Shown in pieces: positions 3,988 through 22,985 of a stretch of DNA of 25,083 nucleotides (within the stretch, counting starts at the first letter, position 1; the number at the start of each line of letters is the position of its first letter). Source of the DNA: a virus; the IMG/VR virus record IMGVR_UViG_3300020438_000258, positions 1-25,083 of that record; one strand, written 5' to 3'. The translations under genes were made by a program, and so were the position numbers. The notes beneath the pieces are model-generated. The model was not told where the DNA came from. It worked only from the letters and a program-made list of their open reading frames with translations, and ran no database searches.

Positions 3988-5643
3988 ATGGCACAACAAC
4001 TATATTTCAGTCGTGATACGAGAATGTTTATTCAGTTTCGTAACCCTGCTGATAATACTGAAGCAGCTGCAAAGCTGGGAGCGGGTGCTCTCTGGGAGGT
4101 TCCTGTATTAGACGGATATAGCTTCTCTCAAACCACCAATACCTCCGAAATAACACTTGCGGAAATGGAAAGTACCGTAGGTATAAGTAGACGTGGTCGT
4201 CGTATGTTTACAGACTCCTTAGCACCTGCTGAGTGGTCTTTCTCTACATATATTCGTCCTTTCGTATCTAAAGCAGGGAGTGTTACTCCTGCAGGGTCTG
4301 TTGCGGCTTCTGATGCAACAGAAGTACACGCGGTAGAGGAAGCCTTATGGGCAGGCATGTTTGGTGCAGATACCTACACTACAGGAAGTGGTTTTACACG
4401 AGCTACCAATCCTGCAGTAAGTGGAGGACCTGTTATTACTCCCGCAAGCACTAGTTCAGTTATTAGTATAGCAGAATCTAACAGATCAGCAATGACTGGT
4501 TTTGTTATATTCTTTATGATTGATACTGCAACCTCAAATCCTCTTGTATACAGACTACCAGAAGCAGTTGTTAATGAAGTAAGTGTAGACTTTGATGTCG
4601 ATGGTATTGCTACGTTAAATTGGTCTGGAATGGCAAAAGAAATTCAAGACGTATCTGGTGGAGTACTTACAGGAACTTCGGCTCCTGCGTATAATGCTAC
4701 GAGTAAAGACGGTTCTACTGTTGTACTTGGTGATATTTTTATCGATACCGACAATGCACTAGGCCGACAGTTTAACATTGTTAAGACTGTTCCTGGAAGT
4801 GGAAATGTATCTTTAACCGCAGCAATTGATGAAGGTACAACTAGTACTAAGAACTTTATTCGAAATCGATTGACTTCTGTAAGTATTGAAGCTGCAGATG
4901 CTACGGATAAGATTCCTACTATTTTCCCTGGTTCTAATGTTCCTATTACAGGACTTACTAAAGCTGACCCTGCTGTTGCAACAGCTGCAGCACACGGCTT
5001 TGCCGTGGGGGATAAAGTTTTTGTTTCAGGAACCTGTGCAATAACAACTTCCAGTGTTGATGTTCTTCAGAATATTGAGCATACAATTACAGCCGTTACC
5101 ACAAATACCTTTACTATAGGAGCTCTGGATACCTCCAGTTCTTCTGGTACTTTTAGTGCCTCCAGTTTGGTAGCTGCAAACGGAAAGTATAGTCTAGTAC
5201 TAACAGGTGGAAACTTTACTTTAGGTAATAATATTACGTACCTTGTACCAGAAGAATTAGGTGCAATTAACCAGCCGCTTGAGCACGTAACAGGCAACCG
5301 AGCTGCTACAGGTAATGCAACCTGTTATCTTACATTGGATGACGCAGATATTACGTCAGGTACATCAAGACAGTTCTTTAATGATCTTGTTAGTACAGGC
5401 GCAATGTCTAAAGTTGTAAACAAGTTTGAGGTAACAATGCATATTGGTGGTGCTACAGCAACAGGTAACACTACTGACCCTGCATTAAAGATTGTTTTTC
5501 CTACTGCTCACATTGAGGTTCCTACTCACTCAATTGAGGATGTTATATCAATGGAAACAAACTTTACCGCACTTCCAACAGACTTTGGAACAGCAGACGA
5601 AGTTAGCTCAATCACCTACTTCCCAGTAGACGATTACGCTTAA
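3988..5643 (+). CDS. Major tail tube protein with FCCH-like insert
   Basis: A 551-aa tube subunit. It is long for a siphovirus tube protein and more like the double-domain T5 pb6 type. The N-terminal half (LYFSRDTRMFIQF, WEVPVLDGYSFSQTTNTSEI, GRRMFTDSLAPAEWSFSTYI) has the usual tube pattern of strands around a 'SEI' turn. Residues about 315-380 (PITGLTKADPAVATAAAHGF, then GDKVFVSGT and NTFTIGALD) match the FCCH domain of ubiquitin E1 enzymes, known as a stray module in phage structural proteins. Residues about 390-551 look like a second tube domain. AGGAG (3976-3980) lies 7 nt before the ATG. Of 16 Arg codons, 11 are CGN, consistent with a highly expressed gene. It is followed by a terminator and a new promoter. 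Confidence 0.8.
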   Translation: MAQQLYFSRDTRMFIQFRNPADNTEAAAKLGAGALWEVPVLDGYSFSQTTNTSEITLAEMESTVGISRRGRRMFTDSLAPAEWSFSTYIRPFVSKAGSVTPAGSVAASDATEVHAVEEALWAGMFGADTYTTGSGFTRATNPAVSGGPVITPASTSSVISIAESNRSAMTGFVIFFMIDTATSNPLVYRLPEAVVNEVSVDFDVDGIATLNWSGMAKEIQDVSGGVLTGTSAPAYNATSKDGSTVVLGDIFIDTDNALGRQFNIVKTVPGSGNVSLTAAIDEGTTSTKNFIRNRLTSVSIEAADATDKIPTIFPGSNVPITGLTKADPAVATAAAHGFAVGDKVFVSGTCAITTSSVDVLQNIEHTITAVTTNTFTIGALDTSSSSGTFSASSLVAANGKYSLVLTGGNFTLGNNITYLVPEELGAINQPLEHVTGNRAATGNATCYLTLDDADITSGTSRQFFNDLVSTGAMSKVVNKFEVTMHIGGATATGNTTDPALKIVFPTAHIEVPTHSIEDVISMETNFTALPTDFGTADEVSSITYFPVDDYA

Positions 5644-5648
5644 TACCT

Positions 5649-5672
5649 AAAAGGGGCTTCGGCCCCTTTTTT
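5649..5672 (+). terminator. Strong UUCG-loop terminator after the tail tube gene
   Basis: GGGGC (5653-5657), loop TTCG, GCCCC (5662-5666), then six T's. The upstream AAAA pairs with part of the T-run to lengthen the stem. This is a textbook intrinsic terminator placed directly after the tube stop codon. Confidence 0.95.
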
Positions 5673-5695: not shown

Positions 5696-5724
5696 TTGAC
5701 ATTTATTGTCTTATATCGTATAAT
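5696..5724 (+). promoter_or_regulatory. Consensus sigma70-type promoter P1
   Basis: TTGACA (5696-5701) and TATAAT (5719-5724), with both hexamers exact and a 17-nt spacer. It lies between the tube terminator and the chaperone gene, whose ATG (5754) is preceded by TAAGGA (5738-5743). The spacer holds TGTC (5707-5710), which pairs as an inverted repeat with GACA of the -35 box and might be an operator half-site. Confidence 0.88.
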
Positions 5725-5753: not shown

Positions 5754-6197
5754 ATGGCTGATGCTGCTACAACAACAAAGAAAGAACCTGTTTCACTAAA
5801 AAGTCTTATGACTTCTAGCAAGACTGTAAAAATACCCTTCCCAGGATACGAAGGATTTAATATAGATATATGTTACTTAGCTAGAGAAGAGCTTATAAAA
5901 ATACGCAAAAAATGTATTACAAATAAGTGGAACAAGAAAACTCATCAACCAGAAGAAGAACTTGACGATGATAAGTTCTTAGTAGAATATACAAAAGCAA
6001 TAATAAAGGGATGGGAAGGCTTTAAATACTCTTACCTAGAAGAGCTTCTTTTGGTGGATATAAGAGACTTTGATCCTGAGGATTGTTTGCCCTACACTGC
6101 GGAAAACGCAGAGTTATTAATGAGAAATGCAACCGATTTCGATACATGGATAACCGAAACAGTAGGTGACTTGGAAAATTTTACCAAGAACAAGTAG
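5754..6197 (+). CDS. Tail assembly chaperone (lambda gpG analogue)
   Basis: A 147-aa protein in the position of lambda G, the chaperone that coats the tape measure and recruits tube subunits; it is normally absent from the finished virion. After a disordered N-terminus it has a small beta region (KTVKIPFPGYEGFNIDICYL) and helices (AREELIKIRKKC, DDKFLVEYTKAIIKGWEGF), with an acidic C-terminal half, as is common for tail chaperones. It is the first gene after promoter P1. Its last codons carry the frameshift heptamer A AAT TTT (6176-6182), so most ribosomes would end at TAG 6195-6197 and a minority would make the longer form. The sequence is diverged; position plus the frameshift signal carry the assignment. 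Confidence 0.75.
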   Translation: MADAATTTKKEPVSLKSLMTSSKTVKIPFPGYEGFNIDICYLAREELIKIRKKCITNKWNKKTHQPEEELDDDKFLVEYTKAIIKGWEGFKYSYLEELLLVDIRDFDPEDCLPYTAENAELLMRNATDFDTWITETVGDLENFTKNK

Positions 6198-6610
6198 TAG
6201 AAATACTTAAGCTACTTGAAAGATATGTAAATGAGAGAAACTCTAGCTTTGATTTAGAGAAGTATTTACTTATCTGTGAACAATTAGGCGAAGAGCCCGA
6301 CCCTAAAAGAATGCCACTTGAAGCCTCTGTATTTCCTGAGGAAGTTCAACTGGCATTTTTTGTATTCCAAAGGCTAACAGATAGATGGGATACTAATACT
6401 GGTACATATTTTGGAAAAGACTGGAGCGATATAAAGTATTTATTTGAACTGTACGAAATAGAAGACGAAAGAGAAGTGTATTTTTTTGCAAGATCATACG
6501 AAAGTTACGTTGTAAAAGCGGCCGCAGAGGATCAAAAGCGGAGACAAAAAAGAGAAGAACAAAAAGCGGGTAATAGCGGTAAAACCTATACCCATAATGT
6601 GCGAGGATAA
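5754..6610 (+). CDS. Chaperone fusion made by -1 frameshift (lambda gpGT analogue)
   Basis: Predicted product of slippage at 6176-6182, equivalent to join(5754..6182, 6182..6610), about 285 aa. The -1 frame is open from the slip site to TAA at 6608-6610, reading ...ENF-YQEQVVEILKLLERYV and on through MPLEASVFPEEVQLAFFVF to a basic, charged tail (QKRRQKREEQK). The downstream frame has no start codon until ATG 6311, well inside the conserved-looking domain and with no good Shine-Dalgarno, so frameshifting explains it better than a separate gene. In lambda-like phages the T domain binds tube subunits while G binds the tape measure. The stop overlaps the tape measure ATG by one base (TAATG). Confidence 0.8.
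6176..6182 (+). other. Slippery heptamer for -1 frameshift
   Basis: A AAT TTT in the gpG frame fits X XXY YYZ exactly. After slippage the ribosome reads TAC (6182-6184) in the frame that stays open to 6610. It lies 12 nt before the zero-frame stop. Confidence 0.85.
6191..6267 (+). promoter_or_regulatory. Candidate frameshift-stimulating hairpin/pseudoknot
   Basis: CAAGTAG (6191-6197) pairs perfectly with CTACTTG (6212-6218), starting 8 nt after the slip site. The 14-nt loop contains AAATACTT (6201-6208), perfectly complementary to AAGTATTT (6260-6267). Together they allow an H-type pseudoknot with a 7-bp and an 8-bp stem. The pairs are AU-rich, so stability is uncertain. An alternative short hairpin, AAGTA with TACTT (6204-6208), would compete. 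Confidence 0.5.
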
Positions 6611-9600
6611 TGGCTAAGAATACGATATTTATTGATGTAGTAGTAGATGATAAAGGCACAACAAAAAGAGTTGCTGTTGATTCTGCGAAGTTAAATGCTC
6701 AATTAAAAGGCCAAAGCGAGTCGGCACAGACAGCAGACCGTAGAATAAAAGGTCTTGCTCAAACTTCTTCAAATGCTACTAAGAATAATGCAAAAATGAT
6801 GCAAGGCATATCAGGAGGTTTAGTTCCTGCATATGCTACTTTAGCCGCTCAAGTATTTGCTATAACGGCTGCTTACAATTTTCTAAAATCTGCGGCAGAC
6901 TTTGAAGTACTCGCAGCAGGTCAAGTAGCTTATTCTAAAGCTACTGGTGTAGCTATGAAGTCATTAACTAATGATATTGTAGCTAATACAAATGCTCAAA
7001 TTAACTTTAAAGATGCAAGCCAAGCGGCAGCTATTGGTATGGCATCGGGTCTTAGTCCCGACCAATTAAAAGACTTAGGAACAGCCGCCAGAGATGTATC
7101 TGCTGTACTCGGGAGAGATGTAACAGACTCTTTTAATCGTTTAATAAGAGGTGTTACAAAAGCAGAACCAGAATTACTCGATGAATTAGGTATTATTTTA
7201 AGATTAGAAACAGCCTCACAAAAATATGCTGATGCTATAGGTGCAGATGTTAAAGAGCTTACTGCCTTTCAGAGAAGTCAAGCAGTAGCTAATGATGTTC
7301 TTGAACAAACTGAAGAAAAATACTCCAAAAATTTAAGTGCTACTGATAAGTTAGGTAACTCAGTAGCAAAGCTTGGTATAGCATTTCAAAATAATCTTTT
7401 AAAGCCGTTTCAAGAAGGCTTGGCAAAGGTTATTACTCCTGTATTTGATTTTTTAACTGAAAATACCACAGCTCTTGCTCTTTCAATGGGGTTACTTGCA
7501 GTTCCTATAATTAAACAAATTATTCCTTCTTTTGGTAACATGGGAAAAGCTGCACAAGATGCAGCAGATGCTGCTAAGAGCGCTGTAAATGATGAAATGA
7601 AAAGCCTAGCAGGTAAAAGCCGCGCTTTAAAAAAGATGGAAAAAGAGAGAGTAAAAAGTGCAAACCAAGCAAGAAAAGATGCCAAAGACCAGGTTAAAGG
7701 GCTAAAGTCAAAGGAAGGATCTGGTTTAGCTGTTTTACAAGGAGGAGGTACTCCTACTCCTGCCCAGACTCGTGGAATGTTACGTGCCGCAAAGAAAAGT
7801 CAGGGTGAATACGCAAAAATGTCAAACCAGACTAGAGCGCAATTTATTCGTAACTTAGAGATGATGCAAGCCAAGAATAAAATAACTTGGAAAAGTATCA
7901 CAGGAACAGTTAGTGTAGCTACAACAAAAGCAAAGATTGCTTTTAAAAAGATGGAACTAGCCTATAAAACTACTATGGCTAAAATGAAAGCGGCTACTGC
8001 AAGTTTTGCTAAATTTACCGATAAAGTTATGGGCAAAGCAGGTGCTGTTGGTGTAATTTTACTGCTTGCTGAAGTAGCAACAATGGCTTTTGATAAAATA
8101 AAAAAATTAACGGAGAGTGCAGAAGAGACAAAATTACGCTTAGCTGAGGAAGCAGAACAAAAAAAATTAGAAGAGCTGAAGGGCAAACTAGAAGGAATAA
8201 ATGACGAGCTTTCTAAGATGGAAGATGGAGTTTCCAACAAAGCTGGCGCAGCAGCTGCAGCTTATATGGGAAATGTAGTTTCTAATATAGGATCTGATGC
8301 GCTTACAAGGGCTTTTAAATCTGGTAATAAAGACCTAATAGGAGAAGCTCAAAGAACTGTATCTAACTTTGTTGCTAGAATGAAAGAAGTCAAGGGATCT
8401 ACTATAGAAGGTAGAGAGGAGTTTATAAGACTTGGAGAAGCTATAGCTAGCGGTACTCCTACGGAGACGGATTTAGCAGCTTTTATGGGCTTGAAAGACT
8501 CAATACAAGAAGGAGGAATGGCGGGTAAAGACTTTGGAAAAGCTATGAAAGACTTACAAGCGTCTCAGCTAGGTCTTATGAATTCTCTAAAGAAGACATC
8601 TAAGTTTAGTGCCATAATTAATAATATAGACAGCCTTGTAAAGTCTTCAAAAGAATACGAAAAACGAAATACTCTTACTACAAAGGAAAACATACTACTA
8701 GTTGAACAGCTTAGAATTAGAAAAATCATGCAAATTTTAAGGGATAATGAAACCAAGGCAGCCATGGCAAAAGTCCAACTAGAAAGTGACTACTTACAAC
8801 GAATACAAAACGCTACCCCACTACAAAAAGAAAGTTTAGCACAACAAAAAGCTATTAATACAATAACTGCTGAGATTCTTGCAAAAAGTGAAGCCTTAGC
8901 GGGTATTAAAGCAAGTATGGATGAGAAAGACCCCCTAAGAACTGCAGAGCAAGTGAAAGCTAATGACCTTGAAGAGGCAAAAATCGGTGCTCTAATTATA
9001 CAGAGAGATTTGTTAATTGAACAAAGTACTTTAATGCATGAAATAAAACAAGGAGCAAAAGGTGCATTTGAAGGAGCTGTCACTACCGGTTTGAAAGACC
9101 TTATAACTGGCAATAATAGTAGTTTCAAAGAGGCAGTAGCGGGAATAGCTATGGCAACCCTAGATAATGTAGCGGGTACATTAGCAAAAAATATGTCTGA
9201 AAAACTTTCAGATATGCTATTTGGTAAACTTTTGGGAGGCCCAGAAGAGACTAAAGAAGCAACACAAATGAGAAATGCTTTAAAGGAAGGTGCTGATTAT
9301 CATGCAAAAGTTTTTAAAGCGATGATAGAAAACCTACCTCCAATACCTATTGGGGGCGGTGTTACAGGACCTACATCTCACAGATTACCAGGTATGGGAA
9401 TAGATCTTAATCAGGCTAGTCGCAATGTACTAATGCCAGATGCTAACGGAGTCATAACTAATGCGCACGGAGGAAAAAGCATGAGAACCGATACGAGCTT
9501 TGTACCAGACTTCGAGGGGGCTGGAGATAAACTTGCAGAAGGTGTTGACGAAGTTTTAAAGAAGAATACTGATGGGGGTTTCGTTGGCAAACTTGGAAAG

Positions 9601-10014
9601 ACCTTAGGAGGTTTGTTCGATAACACTGCAGGGGGGAATCCCATTTTTTCTGCCTTTTCAAGTATATTTGGATTCGCAAAAGGTGGTATACTTCAGAAAG
9701 GAATAACAGGTTATGCTAGTGGAGGAGTTGTAAAAAGACCTACGCTTGGTCTTGTTGGAGAAGGAAGGCAGAATGAAGCTGTAGTACCTTTACCTGATGG
9801 AAAAGCTATACCTGTAAGTATGCCAGGAGGAGGCACAAACACAAATAATGTTTCTATTAGTGTAACTATGGATAATAGTGGTAATAGCTCACAATCTTCC
9901 TCAGACAGTAAAGTAGGGGAAAACTTGGGACTAGCAATATCTCAAGCAGTGCAAGAAGAGTTACAGTATCAAAAAAGATCGGGCGGAATACTAAATCCGT
10001 ATGGAGTAGCGTAA
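6610..10014 (+). CDS. Tape measure protein
   Basis: A 1134-aa tail length ruler. By the usual 0.15 nm per residue it predicts a tail of about 170 nm. It has long Ala/Lys/Glu-rich helical and coiled-coil stretches, and hydrophobic segments near residues 70-97, 285-303 (ALALSMGLLAVPIIK) and 477-493 (GAVGVILLLAEVATMAF), of the kind thought to enter the host membrane during DNA ejection. Residues 110-250 form a helical block (INFKDASQAAAIGM, ELLDELGIILRLE) typical of phage tape measures. The C-terminus (1021-1075) has the conserved Gly-rich ending: GFAKGGI, then YASGGVV, then LGLVGEGRQNEAVVPLPDG. It overlaps the chaperone stop and the next ATG by one base each. Confidence 0.95.
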   Translation: MAKNTIFIDVVVDDKGTTKRVAVDSAKLNAQLKGQSESAQTADRRIKGLAQTSSNATKNNAKMMQGISGGLVPAYATLAAQVFAITAAYNFLKSAADFEVLAAGQVAYSKATGVAMKSLTNDIVANTNAQINFKDASQAAAIGMASGLSPDQLKDLGTAARDVSAVLGRDVTDSFNRLIRGVTKAEPELLDELGIILRLETASQKYADAIGADVKELTAFQRSQAVANDVLEQTEEKYSKNLSATDKLGNSVAKLGIAFQNNLLKPFQEGLAKVITPVFDFLTENTTALALSMGLLAVPIIKQIIPSFGNMGKAAQDAADAAKSAVNDEMKSLAGKSRALKKMEKERVKSANQARKDAKDQVKGLKSKEGSGLAVLQGGGTPTPAQTRGMLRAAKKSQGEYAKMSNQTRAQFIRNLEMMQAKNKITWKSITGTVSVATTKAKIAFKKMELAYKTTMAKMKAATASFAKFTDKVMGKAGAVGVILLLAEVATMAFDKIKKLTESAEETKLRLAEEAEQKKLEELKGKLEGINDELSKMEDGVSNKAGAAAAAYMGNVVSNIGSDALTRAFKSGNKDLIGEAQRTVSNFVARMKEVKGSTIEGREEFIRLGEAIASGTPTETDLAAFMGLKDSIQEGGMAGKDFGKAMKDLQASQLGLMNSLKKTSKFSAIINNIDSLVKSSKEYEKRNTLTTKENILLVEQLRIRKIMQILRDNETKAAMAKVQLESDYLQRIQNATPLQKESLAQQKAINTITAEILAKSEALAGIKASMDEKDPLRTAEQVKANDLEEAKIGALIIQRDLLIEQSTLMHEIKQGAKGAFEGAVTTGLKDLITGNNSSFKEAVAGIAMATLDNVAGTLAKNMSEKLSDMLFGKLLGGPEETKEATQMRNALKEGADYHAKVFKAMIENLPPIPIGGGVTGPTSHRLPGMGIDLNQASRNVLMPDANGVITNAHGGKSMRTDTSFVPDFEGAGDKLAEGVDEVLKKNTDGGFVGKLGKTLGGLFDNTAGGNPIFSAFSSIFGFAKGGILQKGITGYASGGVVKRPTLGLVGEGRQNEAVVPLPDGKAIPVSMPGGGTNTNNVSISVTMDNSGNSSQSSSDSKVGENLGLAISQAVQEELQYQKRSGGILNPYGVA

Positions 10015-13286: not shown

Positions 13287-16200
13287 ATGCCACAACAATC
13301 GATAAATTCGCTAGATAGAAGACGTTATGTATCGGAAAATGATTCTTTAGCGGATGCTATACTTTCGAGTACTGAGCAAACTATTTTAGTTTCTGACATA
13401 ATATCTGAAGGACCTATTCAAGGTCTTGTCGGAGGAGGCCAGGGTATATTTTTAAATAATGATGCTCTACAGTCTTCTGAACAAACTTCTTATATGCCAC
13501 AAAGTGGGATTACTGCAACATTTATTGCAGATAATACCTCTGTAACAGTTAATACTGGAGCAGGTACTTTTAATTCTACTTTAGGAAGTGAGGGTAAAAA
13601 ATACCTTATGGTGTATGGAGTATACAGCACATCTGTTACTATGTCAGATATTTCATTACCTACTAGTACTTATGTTTATAATGGTAATCCTTTTGATAAC
13701 ACGAGTGGACAACATAAAAGAATACCAATAGGAGGTAATGTTGTTCTTACTAGAACAGCCGGTTCTAATATGCTTTCAAGCTGGGCACACCCTACTAGGA
13801 ACCCGGGGGCTGCAATAGTTAGTCGTCCTCTTACTGATACTATCTTTGCAAATCTTAAACTAAGTAAAAGTGGTAAAGATATTAGAGGAGGCCTTTCTAA
13901 TGTCAATACTACTAATAATACCGCAACTTTTACTTGGGGAGGTCAGTTAGGGTGGAAACTAGTAATGACTGATGCGGATAAGGCAAACGGAGTAGTACAT
14001 ACTTTAGAGGCAGGAGTATTTTTAGAAATAGCTTCTATTAGTAATAATACTATTACTCTAGCTCAGGCTCCTGGATTTGCAGGAACATTTAGGTTCGGAA
14101 TAACTAAAGCAGTTTTAGAATCAGATGCCACAGGATCAGAAAAAGCAAAAATTGAAGAAAAATACAAAAACTCAGGATGGAGTTTTAATACTGGTACAAT
14201 AGACCAAGACCCCTTGCCTACAATAGAGGGTGTAGGCACTACTTCTGTTGCTCTTTCTATCTCTGATTCAGCACTAGATAAAAATGCTGCTAGAACAATT
14301 ACTTCTTCAGGAGCTCAAGCGTCAGAAATTGATGAAGTAAAGTTTTTAATCAACTATCCCTCTGGTCTATACTATGTGAGTGAGACTAGTGGTAGAGAGT
14401 ACCCAGGAGGAGTGGGATATAAACTAGAATTAAGTATTGATAGTGGATCAGGAGATAACTTTAATATACTAGAAAGTCCTGCGGGCACAATGTTTAATGG
14501 GTCGCCGGTGTGGGTTCATAGTGGTAAATATAAGAGTGGTGTTACTTTTGAAATGAGAATAAATCTCGAACAATATCAACCTTTTAATGGGTTTAAGATA
14601 AGAATAACACGAATGACTCAACACGATCCAAATGATGGAGGTGCAGTCTCTCCTGCTTTAGTAACGCAAAAAACTCGATATAAGAGCGTCTACCAAAGCG
14701 CCATTTCTAGTGTAATAGGTATAATAAAAGAAAAACTTTCTTATCCTCATACAGCTATGGCAAATGTTAGTTTTAGCTCTAAATCTTTTGATAATGTTCC
14801 TACTAGGACTTATTTAGCTCAAGGACTAAAAGTTAGAGTTCCTAGTAATTATGTAACAAGAGAACAAAATGATGGGCTAAATGCTAAGTATACTCGTACC
14901 AATGCATCCACTCCTAACCTTACGGGAGCTGTTCAACTATGGGACGGTAATTTTCTACAAGACAGCGAAGGAAATGAGATATTAGTATATACAGATAACC
15001 CTGCTTGGATTTTTTATGATGTACTAATAAATAATAGATACGGACTTGGAGACTTTCTAGAATCGACTGATATTGATAAGTATTCTTTATTTAAAATTTC
15101 AAAATACTGTGATGAATTAGTTCCTGACGGAAAAGGAGGTACAGAACCTCGTTTTCGCGCGAACATATATCTTACAAAAGCAACAGATTCTTATAAAGTA
15201 TTAAAAGATTTAGCAACAATATTTAGAGGAATATTATATTGGACAGATTCAACTTTTAGACCTGTAATAGACGAAAAAACAGAGCCAGTGTATAATTTTA
15301 GTAGAAGTAATGTAATAGATGGATCTTTCAACTATGAGACTACTGGAGCTAGAACTCGAATAAATCAAATGGTAATAGAGTGGTCTAACCCAGAAGCGGA
15401 GTATAAACTCGAGCCGATCATTGTAGAAGATCGAGAAGACCAAATTAGAACAGGCACAATAAAAAGTGAAAGAGCTATTGCTTACGGATGCACTTCGGAA
15501 GGGCAAGCCATAAGATATGGTAGATGGAAACTTTGGACTGCACTAAATCAGACAGAAATAATTAATTTTTCTAGTGCTGTTAATGCTTCTTTTCTTTCCC
15601 CCGGTGATGTTATTAATATACAAGATGAAGCAGACTTTGATTTAGCTTTTAGTGGGAGAGTTAATTCTTGTACTAGCTCTGCAATTACAATTGACCGTGC
15701 TATCTCTTCAGATTTTGCAAGCGGTTTTACTTATACTATAGCTGTGGTACTTCCTAAGAGAACGGTACTTTTAAACCAAAATAGTGCAGTTATTGATGAA
15801 AACGGAGGAGGCACCGCAACTTATAATAGAGGAGATGAAGTAACTCATGCTAAAGTAGGGGGATCTACTACTCAGTTACTTCATGCTACTAATGAGGATC
15901 TTACTCGTAGACAGATTGAAAGTGCTACAGATAGTTCAGGAAACCTATTAAATTTACAGTATATAAATGAAACTATTGTAGAGGAAAGAACTTTAACTAC
16001 AGGAAGTACAACTACTTCAGAAGGAAGAGATACTATTCCTATATCTTCTGCTTTTTCTGTGCTTCCTACTAACGGAGATATCTGGGCAATAAAACAAATT
16101 AGTACTGCAGGGTTGACAACTGCCGCTTCTTATAAACAATATAAAATACTTTCTATAGCAGAACAAGAAGGAGGCAAGTTTGATTTAGTAGCTGCTGAGT

Positions 16201-19094
16201 ATTCTACTGCCAAGTTTGATTCTGTAGATCAAGAATTTAGTTTAGCTGCGGTAGACCCTTTATTTCCTCCTGAGAATACAGTGGAAGTACCTCCTCCAAA
16301 AGGAATAAGAATATTAAAAGAGCCTAACCCAGATCAAAAAGGAGAAGAAGTAATAGTTGAATGGGACGCACCTGCTGCAGTGGGCTCTTCTGGAGTATCT
16401 ACAACATACGAACACTTAGCTGAATTTAAAATCTTTCACACTTTTGGAGAACAAATAAATGGTAGTGACCTTGTAAGTGGGGGTACTGTTCCAAGTTGGA
16501 GAAGCCATTTAAGATTTGATAATGTTACAAATGGCAGACATACGGTTGCCATACAAACTGTTAGCGGAAAAGGAAGAACTTCAAGAAAAGTATCTGCGAC
16601 TATAGATATAGATGATGTATTTGAAGGGGACTTCCCTCGACTTGGCGGGGTAACAAAAGGAGGTTTCTCTACAAGTGATGTAGCGGTAATCGATTCGGGG
16701 TCTCAAAAAGGCTCTGTTAAGTTTGGTACTACTTCCTATGCGATAGCTCCCTTCACGGATATAAATATAGCAAAAAGAAATACTAGTGCAGATGCAAACA
16801 GCTATGGTTTATCCTGCGCAGCCTTGGCTGATAGTAGTTGGGCATATCAGGAAGGAGGAGTTGATCTCGGGTATTTAATGCTAGACTATAGTGCTGTTGA
16901 TGCAAGTAATGGGTCTGCTAATGCTTTAAAACTTATAGCACGAAAGACAGATACTACTACGTATGGTAGAACTTTATCCTACTGGTATGATGGTATTAAA
17001 TATGTAGCGGATGTAGATAGTATTTGGACGAGCCTAGGAACTTGTACAATGACTAACGATTCTAGAAAGATTACAGGCTCGGGATTCTCTAACTTACAAG
17101 TAGGCACAGTAATAACTGTTGGAAGTAGTTACGCAGCAAAAATTGCATTAGTAGAAAGCAATACTGTAATGTATGTAGATTTTCCGTGGCCTAATGCAAC
17201 TGCAAGTAGCCAAGCAATTAAACGACAAGAATTAATTATTGATTTTGAAAACGATTTCTTAATTACTCCAGTTAGTTATAATGCTTCAGGAACTGACTCT
17301 GCCGGACAAAGTGGTAAGTACGCTCTAGGGGGAGAGAATAATACTATGTCTTTCCTTCAAATTACCCCCGAACTTGCAGGAACAGGTAAAAATGTATTAG
17401 CTACTTCTTCTATAAATGCTATATCGTATAATGCGGCAGGAACTCAGTTAACAACTCTTCCTTCTAGTGGTATTGTAATAACGGCTACAGGTCTTGGATT
17501 TACTAATCCAGAGTTTAAGGTTACGGGAACAAGTGCGTTCAGTATAGTTACTGGATCTGCAGACGGCGATTTTGTTGCAGGAACTAATGGAGTGAGAGAA
17601 ATTACCGTACATAATAACAGTGCAATATCATATAGTGCAACCCCTCTCGACTTTACAGTAACTGTTAGGGAGGCTTTAGATCCTGATAATGCTGCTACTA
17701 CCAAAGCAGCTGTAGTTTCTATTGGTAAATTAAAAGAAGGTTCTCAAGGGAATTCAGCAGCATTAGTATATTTATATAAAATGTCAGCAAATGCTCCTAC
17801 AAGTATAGATGATACTAGTACTTTTCCTGAACTCACAGTATCTATGGCCTCGGGACAAATTGTTGCGGCTTCAGGGTATAGTATTACCAGTAATCAAATT
17901 ATAAACGGAAGCGGAGCAGGAACAGGCTGGTATACTAAAGTAACGGATACTAGTGTAACAGATGGAGTACAATGGATAGCTGCAGCTAGTGCGAGTAGCA
18001 CTGGTACTACAGATACTATTGCTCGTTCGGAGTGGACAGATCCTATTCAGTTTAGTGGCTCTAAAGGGAACGATGGTGACCCTGGAGTTAGTAGTGCAGT
18101 AGCAGAATTGTATCAAAGAACAAACAGTGCTAGTGCTCCTGCAGACCCTTCTCAAACTCTTACTTATACTTTTGCAGATGGAAATTTAAAAAATAGTGGA
18201 GGGGCTACTTCAGGAACAGGATTTAATAGTTGGGTAAAAGATGCCACAAGTCCTGTTGCAGATTCAAAATACTTATGGAAGATAACTGCTCCTGCTATAT
18301 CTACCGGTAGCACGGATACTATTGAAACGGGAGACTGGGCAGATGCTATTTTAGCGGCTCAATTTGGGGCTGAAGGAGATGCAGGAGAGAAAGGAAGACA
18401 AAACTTTGTAGGTACACTGTTTTTTGGAACAGGAGCACCAGATACTTCTAGTCCTGAAAATGGTGAAGCAAACAATCCGCCAACTTTGCCGTCTGGAGGA
18501 GCTTTTACCTTTTCAAATAAAACCTTTACTACAACTGATATAGCGGATCTTGGAGAGGCCATAGCAAATAAATGGTCTTTTACAAGTCCTACTTTCACTG
18601 CGAGAAATGGAAGCAACCAAAAACTATTTTACTATGCATGCTCTGTTACTGCACTAGAAGATGTAAATGGCGATGATGTACCGCAGGGAATATCTTCCGG
18701 AAGCAATCTTGTATTTAGTAACTTACATGTTATACATAGCTTTTCTGGAGTAGTTGCTTTTACTGATTTAAGTGCGAATACAAGTACAGTAATTCATGGA
18801 AATAATATCACGACAGGAATTATACAAAGTGCTAGTAGTAACTATGGAACTGATGCCGTTGGTAACTTTGCAACTAGTGGAACACACTTGGACTTAGATA
18901 ATGGAAGGCTCCGTTCGCCTAAGTTTTACATAGATGGAAGCGGTCTCGGGTTTCAAGATGGGGCAATGGGAGGAACAAACTCCTTAGGGGGAACCATAAC
19001 TGTAGGTAGTAAAGTTACTATTGATGGAGGCAATGAGAAAATTGAAATCTCAGACGGTACAAATGTCAGGGTTAAAATAGGTAAGTTATCATAG
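13287..19094 (+). CDS. J: Central tail tip / host specificity protein J
   Basis: At 1935 aa this is far longer than lambda gpJ (1132 aa). It trimerises at the tail tip and in lambda binds the receptor. N-terminal gpJ landmarks are clear: LVSDIISEGPIQGLVGGG (about 35-52), YLAQGLKVRVPSNY (about 508-522), NPAWIFYDVLINNRYGLGDF and GGTEPRFRANIYL (about 570-635). A fibronectin III-like domain follows at about 1000-1112 (PPPKGIRILKEPN...VIVEWDAP). Residues about 1490-1820 hold three repeat modules of a 'LY.....AP......T..F..G......W' type, separated by short collagen-like strings (GSKGNDGDPG, GAEGDAGEKG). The C-terminus (SPKFYIDGSGLGFQDG, then KIEISDGTNVRVKIGKLS) resembles the trimeric end of gpJ-like fibres. 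AAGGA (13274-13278) precedes the ATG. The modules after residue 1112 probably determine receptor range. Confidence 0.92.
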   Translation: MPQQSINSLDRRRYVSENDSLADAILSSTEQTILVSDIISEGPIQGLVGGGQGIFLNNDALQSSEQTSYMPQSGITATFIADNTSVTVNTGAGTFNSTLGSEGKKYLMVYGVYSTSVTMSDISLPTSTYVYNGNPFDNTSGQHKRIPIGGNVVLTRTAGSNMLSSWAHPTRNPGAAIVSRPLTDTIFANLKLSKSGKDIRGGLSNVNTTNNTATFTWGGQLGWKLVMTDADKANGVVHTLEAGVFLEIASISNNTITLAQAPGFAGTFRFGITKAVLESDATGSEKAKIEEKYKNSGWSFNTGTIDQDPLPTIEGVGTTSVALSISDSALDKNAARTITSSGAQASEIDEVKFLINYPSGLYYVSETSGREYPGGVGYKLELSIDSGSGDNFNILESPAGTMFNGSPVWVHSGKYKSGVTFEMRINLEQYQPFNGFKIRITRMTQHDPNDGGAVSPALVTQKTRYKSVYQSAISSVIGIIKEKLSYPHTAMANVSFSSKSFDNVPTRTYLAQGLKVRVPSNYVTREQNDGLNAKYTRTNASTPNLTGAVQLWDGNFLQDSEGNEILVYTDNPAWIFYDVLINNRYGLGDFLESTDIDKYSLFKISKYCDELVPDGKGGTEPRFRANIYLTKATDSYKVLKDLATIFRGILYWTDSTFRPVIDEKTEPVYNFSRSNVIDGSFNYETTGARTRINQMVIEWSNPEAEYKLEPIIVEDREDQIRTGTIKSERAIAYGCTSEGQAIRYGRWKLWTALNQTEIINFSSAVNASFLSPGDVINIQDEADFDLAFSGRVNSCTSSAITIDRAISSDFASGFTYTIAVVLPKRTVLLNQNSAVIDENGGGTATYNRGDEVTHAKVGGSTTQLLHATNEDLTRRQIESATDSSGNLLNLQYINETIVEERTLTTGSTTTSEGRDTIPISSAFSVLPTNGDIWAIKQISTAGLTTAASYKQYKILSIAEQEGGKFDLVAAEYSTAKFDSVDQEFSLAAVDPLFPPENTVEVPPPKGIRILKEPNPDQKGEEVIVEWDAPAAVGSSGVSTTYEHLAEFKIFHTFGEQINGSDLVSGGTVPSWRSHLRFDNVTNGRHTVAIQTVSGKGRTSRKVSATIDIDDVFEGDFPRLGGVTKGGFSTSDVAVIDSGSQKGSVKFGTTSYAIAPFTDINIAKRNTSADANSYGLSCAALADSSWAYQEGGVDLGYLMLDYSAVDASNGSANALKLIARKTDTTTYGRTLSYWYDGIKYVADVDSIWTSLGTCTMTNDSRKITGSGFSNLQVGTVITVGSSYAAKIALVESNTVMYVDFPWPNATASSQAIKRQELIIDFENDFLITPVSYNASGTDSAGQSGKYALGGENNTMSFLQITPELAGTGKNVLATSSINAISYNAAGTQLTTLPSSGIVITATGLGFTNPEFKVTGTSAFSIVTGSADGDFVAGTNGVREITVHNNSAISYSATPLDFTVTVREALDPDNAATTKAAVVSIGKLKEGSQGNSAALVYLYKMSANAPTSIDDTSTFPELTVSMASGQIVAASGYSITSNQIINGSGAGTGWYTKVTDTSVTDGVQWIAAASASSTGTTDTIARSEWTDPIQFSGSKGNDGDPGVSSAVAELYQRTNSASAPADPSQTLTYTFADGNLKNSGGATSGTGFNSWVKDATSPVADSKYLWKITAPAISTGSTDTIETGDWADAILAAQFGAEGDAGEKGRQNFVGTLFFGTGAPDTSSPENGEANNPPTLPSGGAFTFSNKTFTTTDIADLGEAIANKWSFTSPTFTARNGSNQKLFYYACSVTALEDVNGDDVPQGISSGSNLVFSNLHVIHSFSGVVAFTDLSANTSTVIHGNNITTGIIQSASSNYGTDAVGNFATSGTHLDLDNGRLRSPKFYIDGSGLGFQDGAMGGTNSLGGTITVGSKVTIDGGNEKIEISDGTNVRVKIGKLS

Positions 19095-21258: not shown

Positions 21259-21594
21259 ATGGCAAATACATTTAAAAATGCTTTCGCAGCAAATGTAAAT
21301 CACTCAGCCTATGTTGATTTATATACTGTTGGCTCTAGTACAACTACTGTAATTCTTGGTATGGCAATCTGTAATAAGACTGCTAGTGCTGTAGATATTA
21401 CGGTTCAAATTCAAGATACTTCGGCATCAAATGCAGACTTTCAAGTATTAGATACAGTAAGCATTCCTGCACGTACTACATTAGAAATACTAGCGGGACA
21501 GAAATATATTCTGGAAACTACCGATGTGCTTCGTGTTAAATCAGGTACTGCGAACGCTATAGACGTAACGCTAGGAATTATGGAGATAACGTAA
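21259..21594 (+). CDS. Small all-beta virion protein
   Basis: A 111-aa protein of a type I recognise from phage structural regions but cannot name. The pattern is a compact beta sandwich: FKNAFAANVNHSAYVDLYTV, STTTVILGMAICNKTASAVD, ITVQIQDTSAS, IPARTTLEILAGQKYILET, DVLRVKSG, ending VTLGIMEIT. Proteins like this commonly sit among fibre genes and may be small decoration or fibre-associated subunits. AGGA (21248-21251) lies 7 nt before the ATG, and the stop overlaps the next start by one base (TAATG). No enzymatic motif. Confidence 0.65.
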   Translation: MANTFKNAFAANVNHSAYVDLYTVGSSTTTVILGMAICNKTASAVDITVQIQDTSASNADFQVLDTVSIPARTTLEILAGQKYILETTDVLRVKSGTANAIDVTLGIMEIT

Positions 21595-22985
21595 TGGCAT
21601 CATTTATTGGGGTACAGCCCTCTACTAGTATTGTTTCAATTGGCGGATCCACCATTACCGCAACAGCAGCAGAAGTAAATATCTTAGACGGGGTTACAAG
21701 CACTGCTGCTGAACTTAACATCTTAGATGGGGTTACAAGCACTGCTGCTGAACTGAATATACTTGATGGTGTAACTTCTACCGCCGCAGAACTAAATGCG
21801 CTAGATGGCATTACAGCCGTTGTAGGAGAGTTAAACGCGTTAGATATAGGCAGTACCGCTATAGGAACTGCCGTAGCTTCTAAAGCAGTAATTCTTGATG
21901 CAAATAAAGACTATACTGGAGTAAGAAATCTTACATTGACAGGCGACCTTACTATTGGTGGGGATGATCTTGTGATGGGGACTAATACAGCTGGAATGTT
22001 GCTCATTGCTGATGGTACAAATTTTAATCCTACGGCTGTCTCGTCCCTATCTGAAATTAGTACTATTGCTAGTGATGATGTGTTTTTAGCGATAGATACT
22101 TCAGGGGGAGGCCTTAAAAAAGTAGCAAGAAGCGTGGTAGTAGCTGGACTCGCAACTTCATCTGCCTTGTCTAATGTTTCGGAGGATTCCAGCCCGCAGC
22201 TGGGTGCTAACTTAGACCTTAACGGTAATGATATTGTTACAGCTTCTAATGCCACTTTAGACCTTGCCCCTAACGGAACAGGTACGGTAGTAGTTAGAGG
22301 TAATACAAACTCAGGTGCTATAGTTTTAAACTGTGAGAGTAATAGTCATGGTCAAAAGATTTACGCACAACCACATTCCGCAGCAGTTACTAATACATTA
22401 ATGCTTCCTGCCGGAGCTAATTCAACTTTAGTTTCTCTTGTATCTACAGACACCCTGACCAACAAGACTCTTACTTCACCTAAGATTAATGAAGATGTAG
22501 CAGTTACTTCAACAGCTACCGAAATTAATCTTCTCGATGGAGTTACCGCAACTACCGCAGAGCTTAACTACTTAGATATAGCTACTCTTGGCCTGACCGC
22601 AGCAAGTAAAGCAGTTACCGCAGATGCTAACGGAGTCATAACGCTTGACAACGGCTTTAGCGAAGAGTACGCAGCAGTTACTTCTAGTTCTGCCACAGTT
22701 TCGTTAGACCTAAGAACAGCCAGCAACTTCAGCCATGACTTGACTGAAAACACTACTATATCTTTTACTAACCCAGCAGCGTCTGGAAAAGTATCCGCAG
22801 CTACACTTAGGATCATACAAGGCTCAACTGCTAGAACAATAACATGGAACTCAAGCATCAAGTGGGCTTCAGACACGGCTCCTACACTTACGACTACTAA
22901 TGATGCTGTAGACATCTTTGTGTTCTACACCGTGGACGGGGGTACAACGTATTATGGGTTTACAGCAGGGCAGGTAATGAGCTAA
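21594..22985 (+). CDS. Tail fibre protein with TAAELNILDGV repeats
   Basis: A 463-aa fibre protein. Residues about 24-88 are tandem 13-residue repeats of the form TAAELNILDGVTS (three close copies, then two degenerate ones: TAAELNALDGITA and VVGELNALDIGST). Two more copies occur near residues 305-330 (TATEINLLDGVTA, TTAELNYLD). This repeat is known from phage fibre stalks, where it likely forms a trimeric shaft. The middle has TSPKINEDVAV and LTNKTLTSPK, another common fibre-stalk motif. The last 110 residues (SLDLRTASNFSHDLTENTTI, SFTNPAASGK, ITWNSSIKWASDTAP) form a beta domain frequent at fibre C-termini. GGAG (21582-21585) lies 8 nt before the ATG. Confidence 0.8.
   Translation: MASFIGVQPSTSIVSIGGSTITATAAEVNILDGVTSTAAELNILDGVTSTAAELNILDGVTSTAAELNALDGITAVVGELNALDIGSTAIGTAVASKAVILDANKDYTGVRNLTLTGDLTIGGDDLVMGTNTAGMLLIADGTNFNPTAVSSLSEISTIASDDVFLAIDTSGGGLKKVARSVVVAGLATSSALSNVSEDSSPQLGANLDLNGNDIVTASNATLDLAPNGTGTVVVRGNTNSGAIVLNCESNSHGQKIYAQPHSAAVTNTLMLPAGANSTLVSLVSTDTLTNKTLTSPKINEDVAVTSTATEINLLDGVTATTAELNYLDIATLGLTAASKAVTADANGVITLDNGFSEEYAAVTSSSATVSLDLRTASNFSHDLTENTTISFTNPAASGKVSAATLRIIQGSTARTITWNSSIKWASDTAPTLTTTNDAVDIFVFYTVDGGTTYYGFTAGQVMS
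21663..21857 (+). repeat. 39-bp tandem coding repeats
   Basis: Five 39-bp units (starting at 21663, 21702, 21741, 21780 and 21819) encode the 13-residue fibre repeat. GGGGTTACAAGC ends both the first and second units, and ACTGCTGCTGAACT begins both the second and third; later units keep the protein pattern but use different codons. The unit is in frame, so copy changes would alter fibre length without shifting the frame. Confidence 0.85.

Follow-up and report, generated by a model that had tools for sequence, protein, structure and literature searches.

A probable -1 frameshift cassette in the tail chaperone genes of a marine phage lineage and a putative opposite shift at the same phenylalanine in the T5 family

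How does a phage whose tail assembly chaperone is encoded in two overlapping reading frames produce the long form of this protein? The question is raised by the window, by which we mean the whole stretch of DNA analysed here (an IMG/VR virus record of 25,083 bases), where two chaperone frames, G and T, sit between the genes of the major tail protein and the tape measure. Tail chaperone genes are a classic example of recoding by conserved frameshifting, and within a phage family the mode is usually regarded as fixed. Gene G, the zero-frame ORF of 147 aa at 5754-6197 (this gene and the other genes and sequence elements of the locus lie on the plus strand), matched phrog_313 'Tail assembly chaperone' with an E value of 1.4e-11 and is homologous to G of the T5 family. 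The -1 frame, open over 6170-6610, codes for a conserved T domain from 6182 and matched phrog_3914 'tail assembly chaperone' (E 2.5e-20). Its stop codon is at 6608-6610, and the predicted G-T fusion would be of about 285 aa. The openness of this frame up to 6610, as given in the initial annotation, was confirmed by our reading-frame check.

The neighbouring genes place the pair in a T5-type context. The major tail protein gene (3988-5643; phrog_3575, E 5e-38) had 903 matching phage records, with the same top organisms as for G and T, and the tape measure gene (6610-10014; phrog_3779, E 1.6e-37) matched T5-family tape measures. In homology searches, the relatives of the capsid, tail tube, chaperone pair and tape measure were those of the T5 family, with low identity throughout, this kinship being judged protein by protein on a fragment of about 25 kb. 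The tail tip ORF of 1935 aa (13287-19094) matched N15-like and other lambda-type J proteins of siphophages outside the T5 family. Since it does not match T5-family proteins, this sequence suggests that the tail-tip module of the window has been exchanged. Further downstream, a fibre-like ORF at 21594-22985 carries tandem repeats of the type TAAELNILDGVTS. As to the hosts, two loci among the relatives come from genome bins (Gammaproteobacteria, Porticoccaceae) and could be viral contigs caught in the binning.

Between the tail tube gene and G there are signals of transcription. A terminator-like hairpin, GGGGC-TTCG-GCCCC followed by six T residues, lies 3' of the major tail protein gene (5649-5672), and similar hairpins were found upstream of G in relatives. 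A perfect sigma-70 consensus promoter, TTGACA-17-TATAAT (5696-5724; 12/12 positions), lies upstream of G, where the strict promoter form is present in 53 of 184 relatives versus 0.6% of background windows. By their sequence, these elements indicate that the tail tube gene and the chaperone and tape-measure genes may be transcribed separately. Another terminator-like hairpin was observed directly 3' of the capsid gene, at 1436-1457.

The sequence A_AAT_TTT at 6176-6182 forms an X_XXY_YYZ heptamer that is in phase with G (5754-6197). We assessed its conservation in relatives collected by protein and not by motif, to which annotated phage records were added, and this gave 187 distinct G/T junctions. 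A separate sample found by DNA pattern was left out of the conservation counts because the heptamer and the 5' arm of the hairpin are fixed by its construction. T lies in the -1 frame in 144 of the 187 junctions and in the +1 frame in the remaining 43, and the heptamer is in frame in all 144 junctions of the first kind. These junctions include G homologues whose identity to the Vibrio query is only about 35%, and AAATTTT stays even in distant relatives where the preceding Glu codon became Gln. It was the sole in-frame X_XXY_YYZ of the overlap in 133 of 133 -1 junctions from an earlier subset of 150. Elsewhere in the same genes the alternative codons are in regular use (GAG 29%, AAC 33%, TTC 18%). 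The initial annotation had reported the heptamer at these coordinates and in this phase, and both were verified.

Downstream of the heptamer there is a hairpin whose 5' arm, CAAGTAG (6191-6197), holds the zero-frame TAG (6195-6197) and pairs with CTACTTG (6212-6218). It is a perfect stem of 7 bp which starts 8 nt past the heptamer, as was previously described, and not only do its coordinates hold but the stem also covaries. We compared the folding of the 42 nt after the shift site with that of synonymous-codon shuffles preserving the T protein: the mean energy was -11.0 kcal/mol versus -4.2 in the shuffles, with a mean z of -2.88 over 132 protein-selected relatives and a z of -2.6 for the window itself. 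Control windows in the same test gave z values from -0.8 to 0, and in about 5% of relatives the fold at the hairpin position was no better than z = -1. For pair counts we used 69 sequences, in which 96.3% of cells in the outer seven pairs are paired, a figure inflated because these sequences were chosen by predicted fold, and one whose cells tally related sequences and not independent events. That choice does not inflate the covariation of the inner pairs. Over the 11-pair stem, covariation in the 69 sequences was 0.238 versus 0.117 in shuffled alignments (sd 0.008), none of 500 shuffles being as high, and slid versions of the stem reached at most 0.094. One inner pair (columns 23/36) occurs as CG in 27 sequences, AU in 13, UA in 6 and GC in 5, so compensatory changes have taken place. 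Another group of relatives uses a second register of the hairpin, e.g., AAGAGCAAGTA/TACTTGCTCTT, in which the 5' CAAGTA is the same, the 3' arm lies some nine bases closer to the heptamer and the outer stem is longer; this register has compensatory changes of its own (GAGC/GCTC and GACC/GGTC). Parts of both registers are present in the window. In distant -1 relatives (loci L361-L371) the heptamer is kept and the hairpin is apparently located further downstream, e.g., GAAGAGCT/AGCTCTTC in L371.

A third element, missed in the initial annotation, precedes the heptamer. This is the Shine-Dalgarno (SD)-like AGGTGA at 6164-6169, 6 nt upstream of the slippery site. The mean duplex energy of the 17 nt before the heptamer with the 16S rRNA 3' end was -7.7 kcal/mol versus -2.1 for background in G, calculated for a generic proteobacterial anti-SD which may not be that of the hosts. 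A duplex at or below -6 was found in 77% of relatives versus 7% of the background. The SD-like duplex was stronger than that of the median synonymous shuffle in 109 of 132 relatives, and the signal thus goes beyond codon constraint. This element may stimulate the -1 shift.

The initial annotation had gone further and proposed an H-type pseudoknot as the stimulator, in which the loop segment AAATACTT (6201-6208) would pair with AAGTATTT (6260-6267). The match is real, as the two segments are exact complements over 8 nt. However, a loop-to-downstream match of this kind arises in 8% of the synonymous shuffles of the window, which is not beyond chance, and the relatives lend this second stem no support as a structure. 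In the 69 sequences 57.6% of its cells are paired versus 57.1% in shuffles (a level matched by 158 of 500 shuffles), the pair types are no different from those of shuffles, and pairing at the three distal positions is lost in 48-60 sequences. Its covariation is unconvincing, being marginal (23 of 500 shuffles) and lower than that of one slid control. Over 131 relatives, pairing of the loop with downstream sequence averaged -2.45 kcal/mol versus -2.47 in the synonymous-shuffle control. The loop TACTT can be accounted for in another way, since in the window it is the 3' arm of the second hairpin register. We therefore consider it very unlikely that a pseudoknot stimulates the shift. Of the cassette as first described, the conserved -1 heptamer and the first stem within the chaperone pair stand, and the pseudoknot does not. 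Conservation among relatives was the check which that annotation had set, and the cassette passed it, with the heptamer in 144 of 144 junctions and the first stem conserved.

Since the hairpin and the SD-like element are supported and the second pseudoknot stem is not, the arrangement points to a mechanism like that of E. coli dnaX, where an SD-like element, a slippery heptamer and a downstream simple stem-loop follow in the same order. The window differs from dnaX in its heptamer (A_AAT_TTT versus A_AAA_AAG), in that the fusion is the long product, in the stop codon inside the hairpin stem, and in that a minority product would be expected here and not the 50% of dnaX. It is very probable, judging from the sequences compared, that the locus encodes a siphophage tail assembly chaperone whose G and G-T forms arise through programmed -1 ribosomal frameshifting. 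Most ribosomes would read G and terminate at the TAG at 6195. A minority would pause on A_AAU_UUU, held back by pairing of 16S rRNA with the SD-like AGGUGA just passed and hindered by the simple hairpin in front. The Asn and Phe tRNAs would then re-pair one base back, and reading would continue as ...LEN-F-YQEQ... to 6610. By analogy with lambda gpG and gpGT, the resulting fusion of about 285 aa would bridge tape measure and tail tube protein. Xu, Hendrix and Duda reportedly described the phage lambda G/GT chaperone frameshift and its conserved relatives in 2004. As lambda is described in a review (PMC5009743), the two systems share overlapping chaperone ORFs between the major tail protein and the tape measure, with T in the -1 frame, a slippery sequence close to the 3' end of G and an expected minority fusion product. 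The window is unlike lambda in having A_AAT_TTT, a conserved hairpin, an SD-like element and chaperones of the T5-type and not the lambda-type protein family.

T might instead be translated separately, with no frameshift, from an internal ATG at 6311. The initial annotation had foreseen that a gene finder would call a 99-aa gene there, and a mechanical ORF call returned exactly that ORF (6311-6610). A Met at this position is common among relatives, and gene callers annotate T of the T5 family as an ORF of its own. However, T is conserved in relatives from its first residues, coding is kept right up to the shift site, and conservation in the -1 frame covers the 43 codons upstream of 6311. Among relatives the first ATG of T ranges from codon 23 to codon 72, and no SD is visible before 6311. 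We thus judged this ATG not to be the true start and rejected it as the sole source of T; separate translation, which would also leave the invariant heptamer and the hairpin unexplained, is highly improbable. Transcriptional slippage normally requires homopolymer runs longer than four. The A4T4 sequence at the site does offer a short run of A and of T on which slippage could produce the fusion, but runs of four are too short by that measure, and the exact X_XXY_YYZ phase, the hairpin and the SD-like element are ribosomal hallmarks, which makes this origin extremely improbable. A similar frame change within a conserved gene pair could result from an error in sequencing or from gene decay, yet the same frame relation recurs in 144 distinct relatives drawn from many metagenomes with a conserved intact protein in each frame, and the probability of such an artefact is negligible.

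The 43 junctions with T in the +1 frame belong to T5-family orthologues (Demerecviridae and T5-like marine contigs), and those with -1 T to a large uncultured marine lineage. The chaperone pairs of the two groups are homologous (about 25-40% identity) and have the same gene order, and a two-protein alignment of both groups is gapless across the shift site, with the frames meeting at one Phe. The T5-family orthologues have no such heptamer, and we saw neither a conserved hairpin nor an SD-like element near their site. What they do have in the G/T overlap, at the homologous Phe codon, is TTT_CGT or TTT_CGA (42 of 43 distinct +1 junctions). Such a site with T in the +1 frame occurs neither in the window nor in any of the 144 -1 junctions. 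The candidate +1 site is found at the end of G in L372 and in other T5-family loci (L056-L071, L398-L407), which are annotated as two ORFs. TTT_CGT is carried by both L372 and L400, which we take to be T5 and Sugarland, respectively; in T5 the peptide across the predicted junction would read HLDTF-VAQK. In the tree, a single branch splits the -1 and +1 modes (support 100/99; present in 100% of 200 bootstrap trees). Midpoint rooting, the only rooting used, nests the -1 group within the +1 group and does not by itself give the direction of change between them. We looked for intermediates with both motifs or with neither among the 187 distinct junctions, and one does not classify. This is probably L068, Aeromonas phage TS3. 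In L068 (near 1460-1560) TTT_CGA is present and the +1 frame closes after about eight codons, which would mean that the shift site differs or that the sequence contains an error.

With T in the +1 frame, no heptamer, TTT_CG[T/A] in the overlap and a single branch setting them apart, the T5-family orthologues probably arrive at their fusion through a +1 shift at UUU_CG[U/A], on the homologous Phe codon. The wider reading, that the same G-T fusion is reached by opposite shifts at the same Phe, one a hairpin- and SD-assisted -1 shift and the other a bare +1 shift, with one switch between them, seems likely to us on these comparisons. The initial annotation had not noticed this contrast. Alternatively, TTT_CG[T/A] would be no shift site at all, and T of the T5 family would arise by re-initiation or at another site in the overlap. 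T5 and Sugarland were indeed reported to be without a predicted frameshift signal (PMC6256483), and both the lack of a visible downstream hairpin or SD-like element and the one relative that does not fit, L068, agree with this. Against it, the motif is present in 42 of the 43 junctions despite a Phe codon usage in T5-family G and T genes of 107 TTT to 107 TTC, and in the T5-family phages inspected the +1 frame runs on past the G stop. Moreover, influenza A PA-X has UUU_CGU as its recorded motif for a +1 shift (PMC8310308), a comparison of motif only, with an unrelated gene and a eukaryotic ribosome. We regard this alternative as unlikely.

A_AAT_TTT is an uncommon heptamer, and the -1 cassette is otherwise of a familiar type. 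In the open-access literature, with subscription papers outside the scope, we found no report of AAATTTT in phage chaperones and none of a +1 shift in T5-family chaperones. AAATTTT is absent from the PRFect paper and from the part of the tail-chaperone review that was consulted (PMC5009743). The chaperone of Vandenendeviridae and Andersonviridae uses a -1 frameshift at a GTTTTT motif (PMC12846349), and the evidence there is of the same kind as ours, i.e., an invariant motif and a -1 frame open family-wide. Motif and protein family are different, and the mode is conserved in that case, whereas here the direction differs between sister groups. This contrast of direction between orthologues is the new aspect and the one worth testing.

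For annotation, the consequence is that records of phages in both groups, the -1 lineage and the T5 family, show two separate genes with a false gap instead of a fusion. Product and fusion point are shared by the two groups and the shift direction is not, which suggests that what is selected is the fusion and how much of it is made, and not the mechanism. If the opposite shifts are true, T5-like phages, thought to be without a frameshift signal, would use +1 frameshifting, and this offers a candidate and readily testable answer to how T5, a classic phage reported without such a signal, may make the long form of its chaperone.
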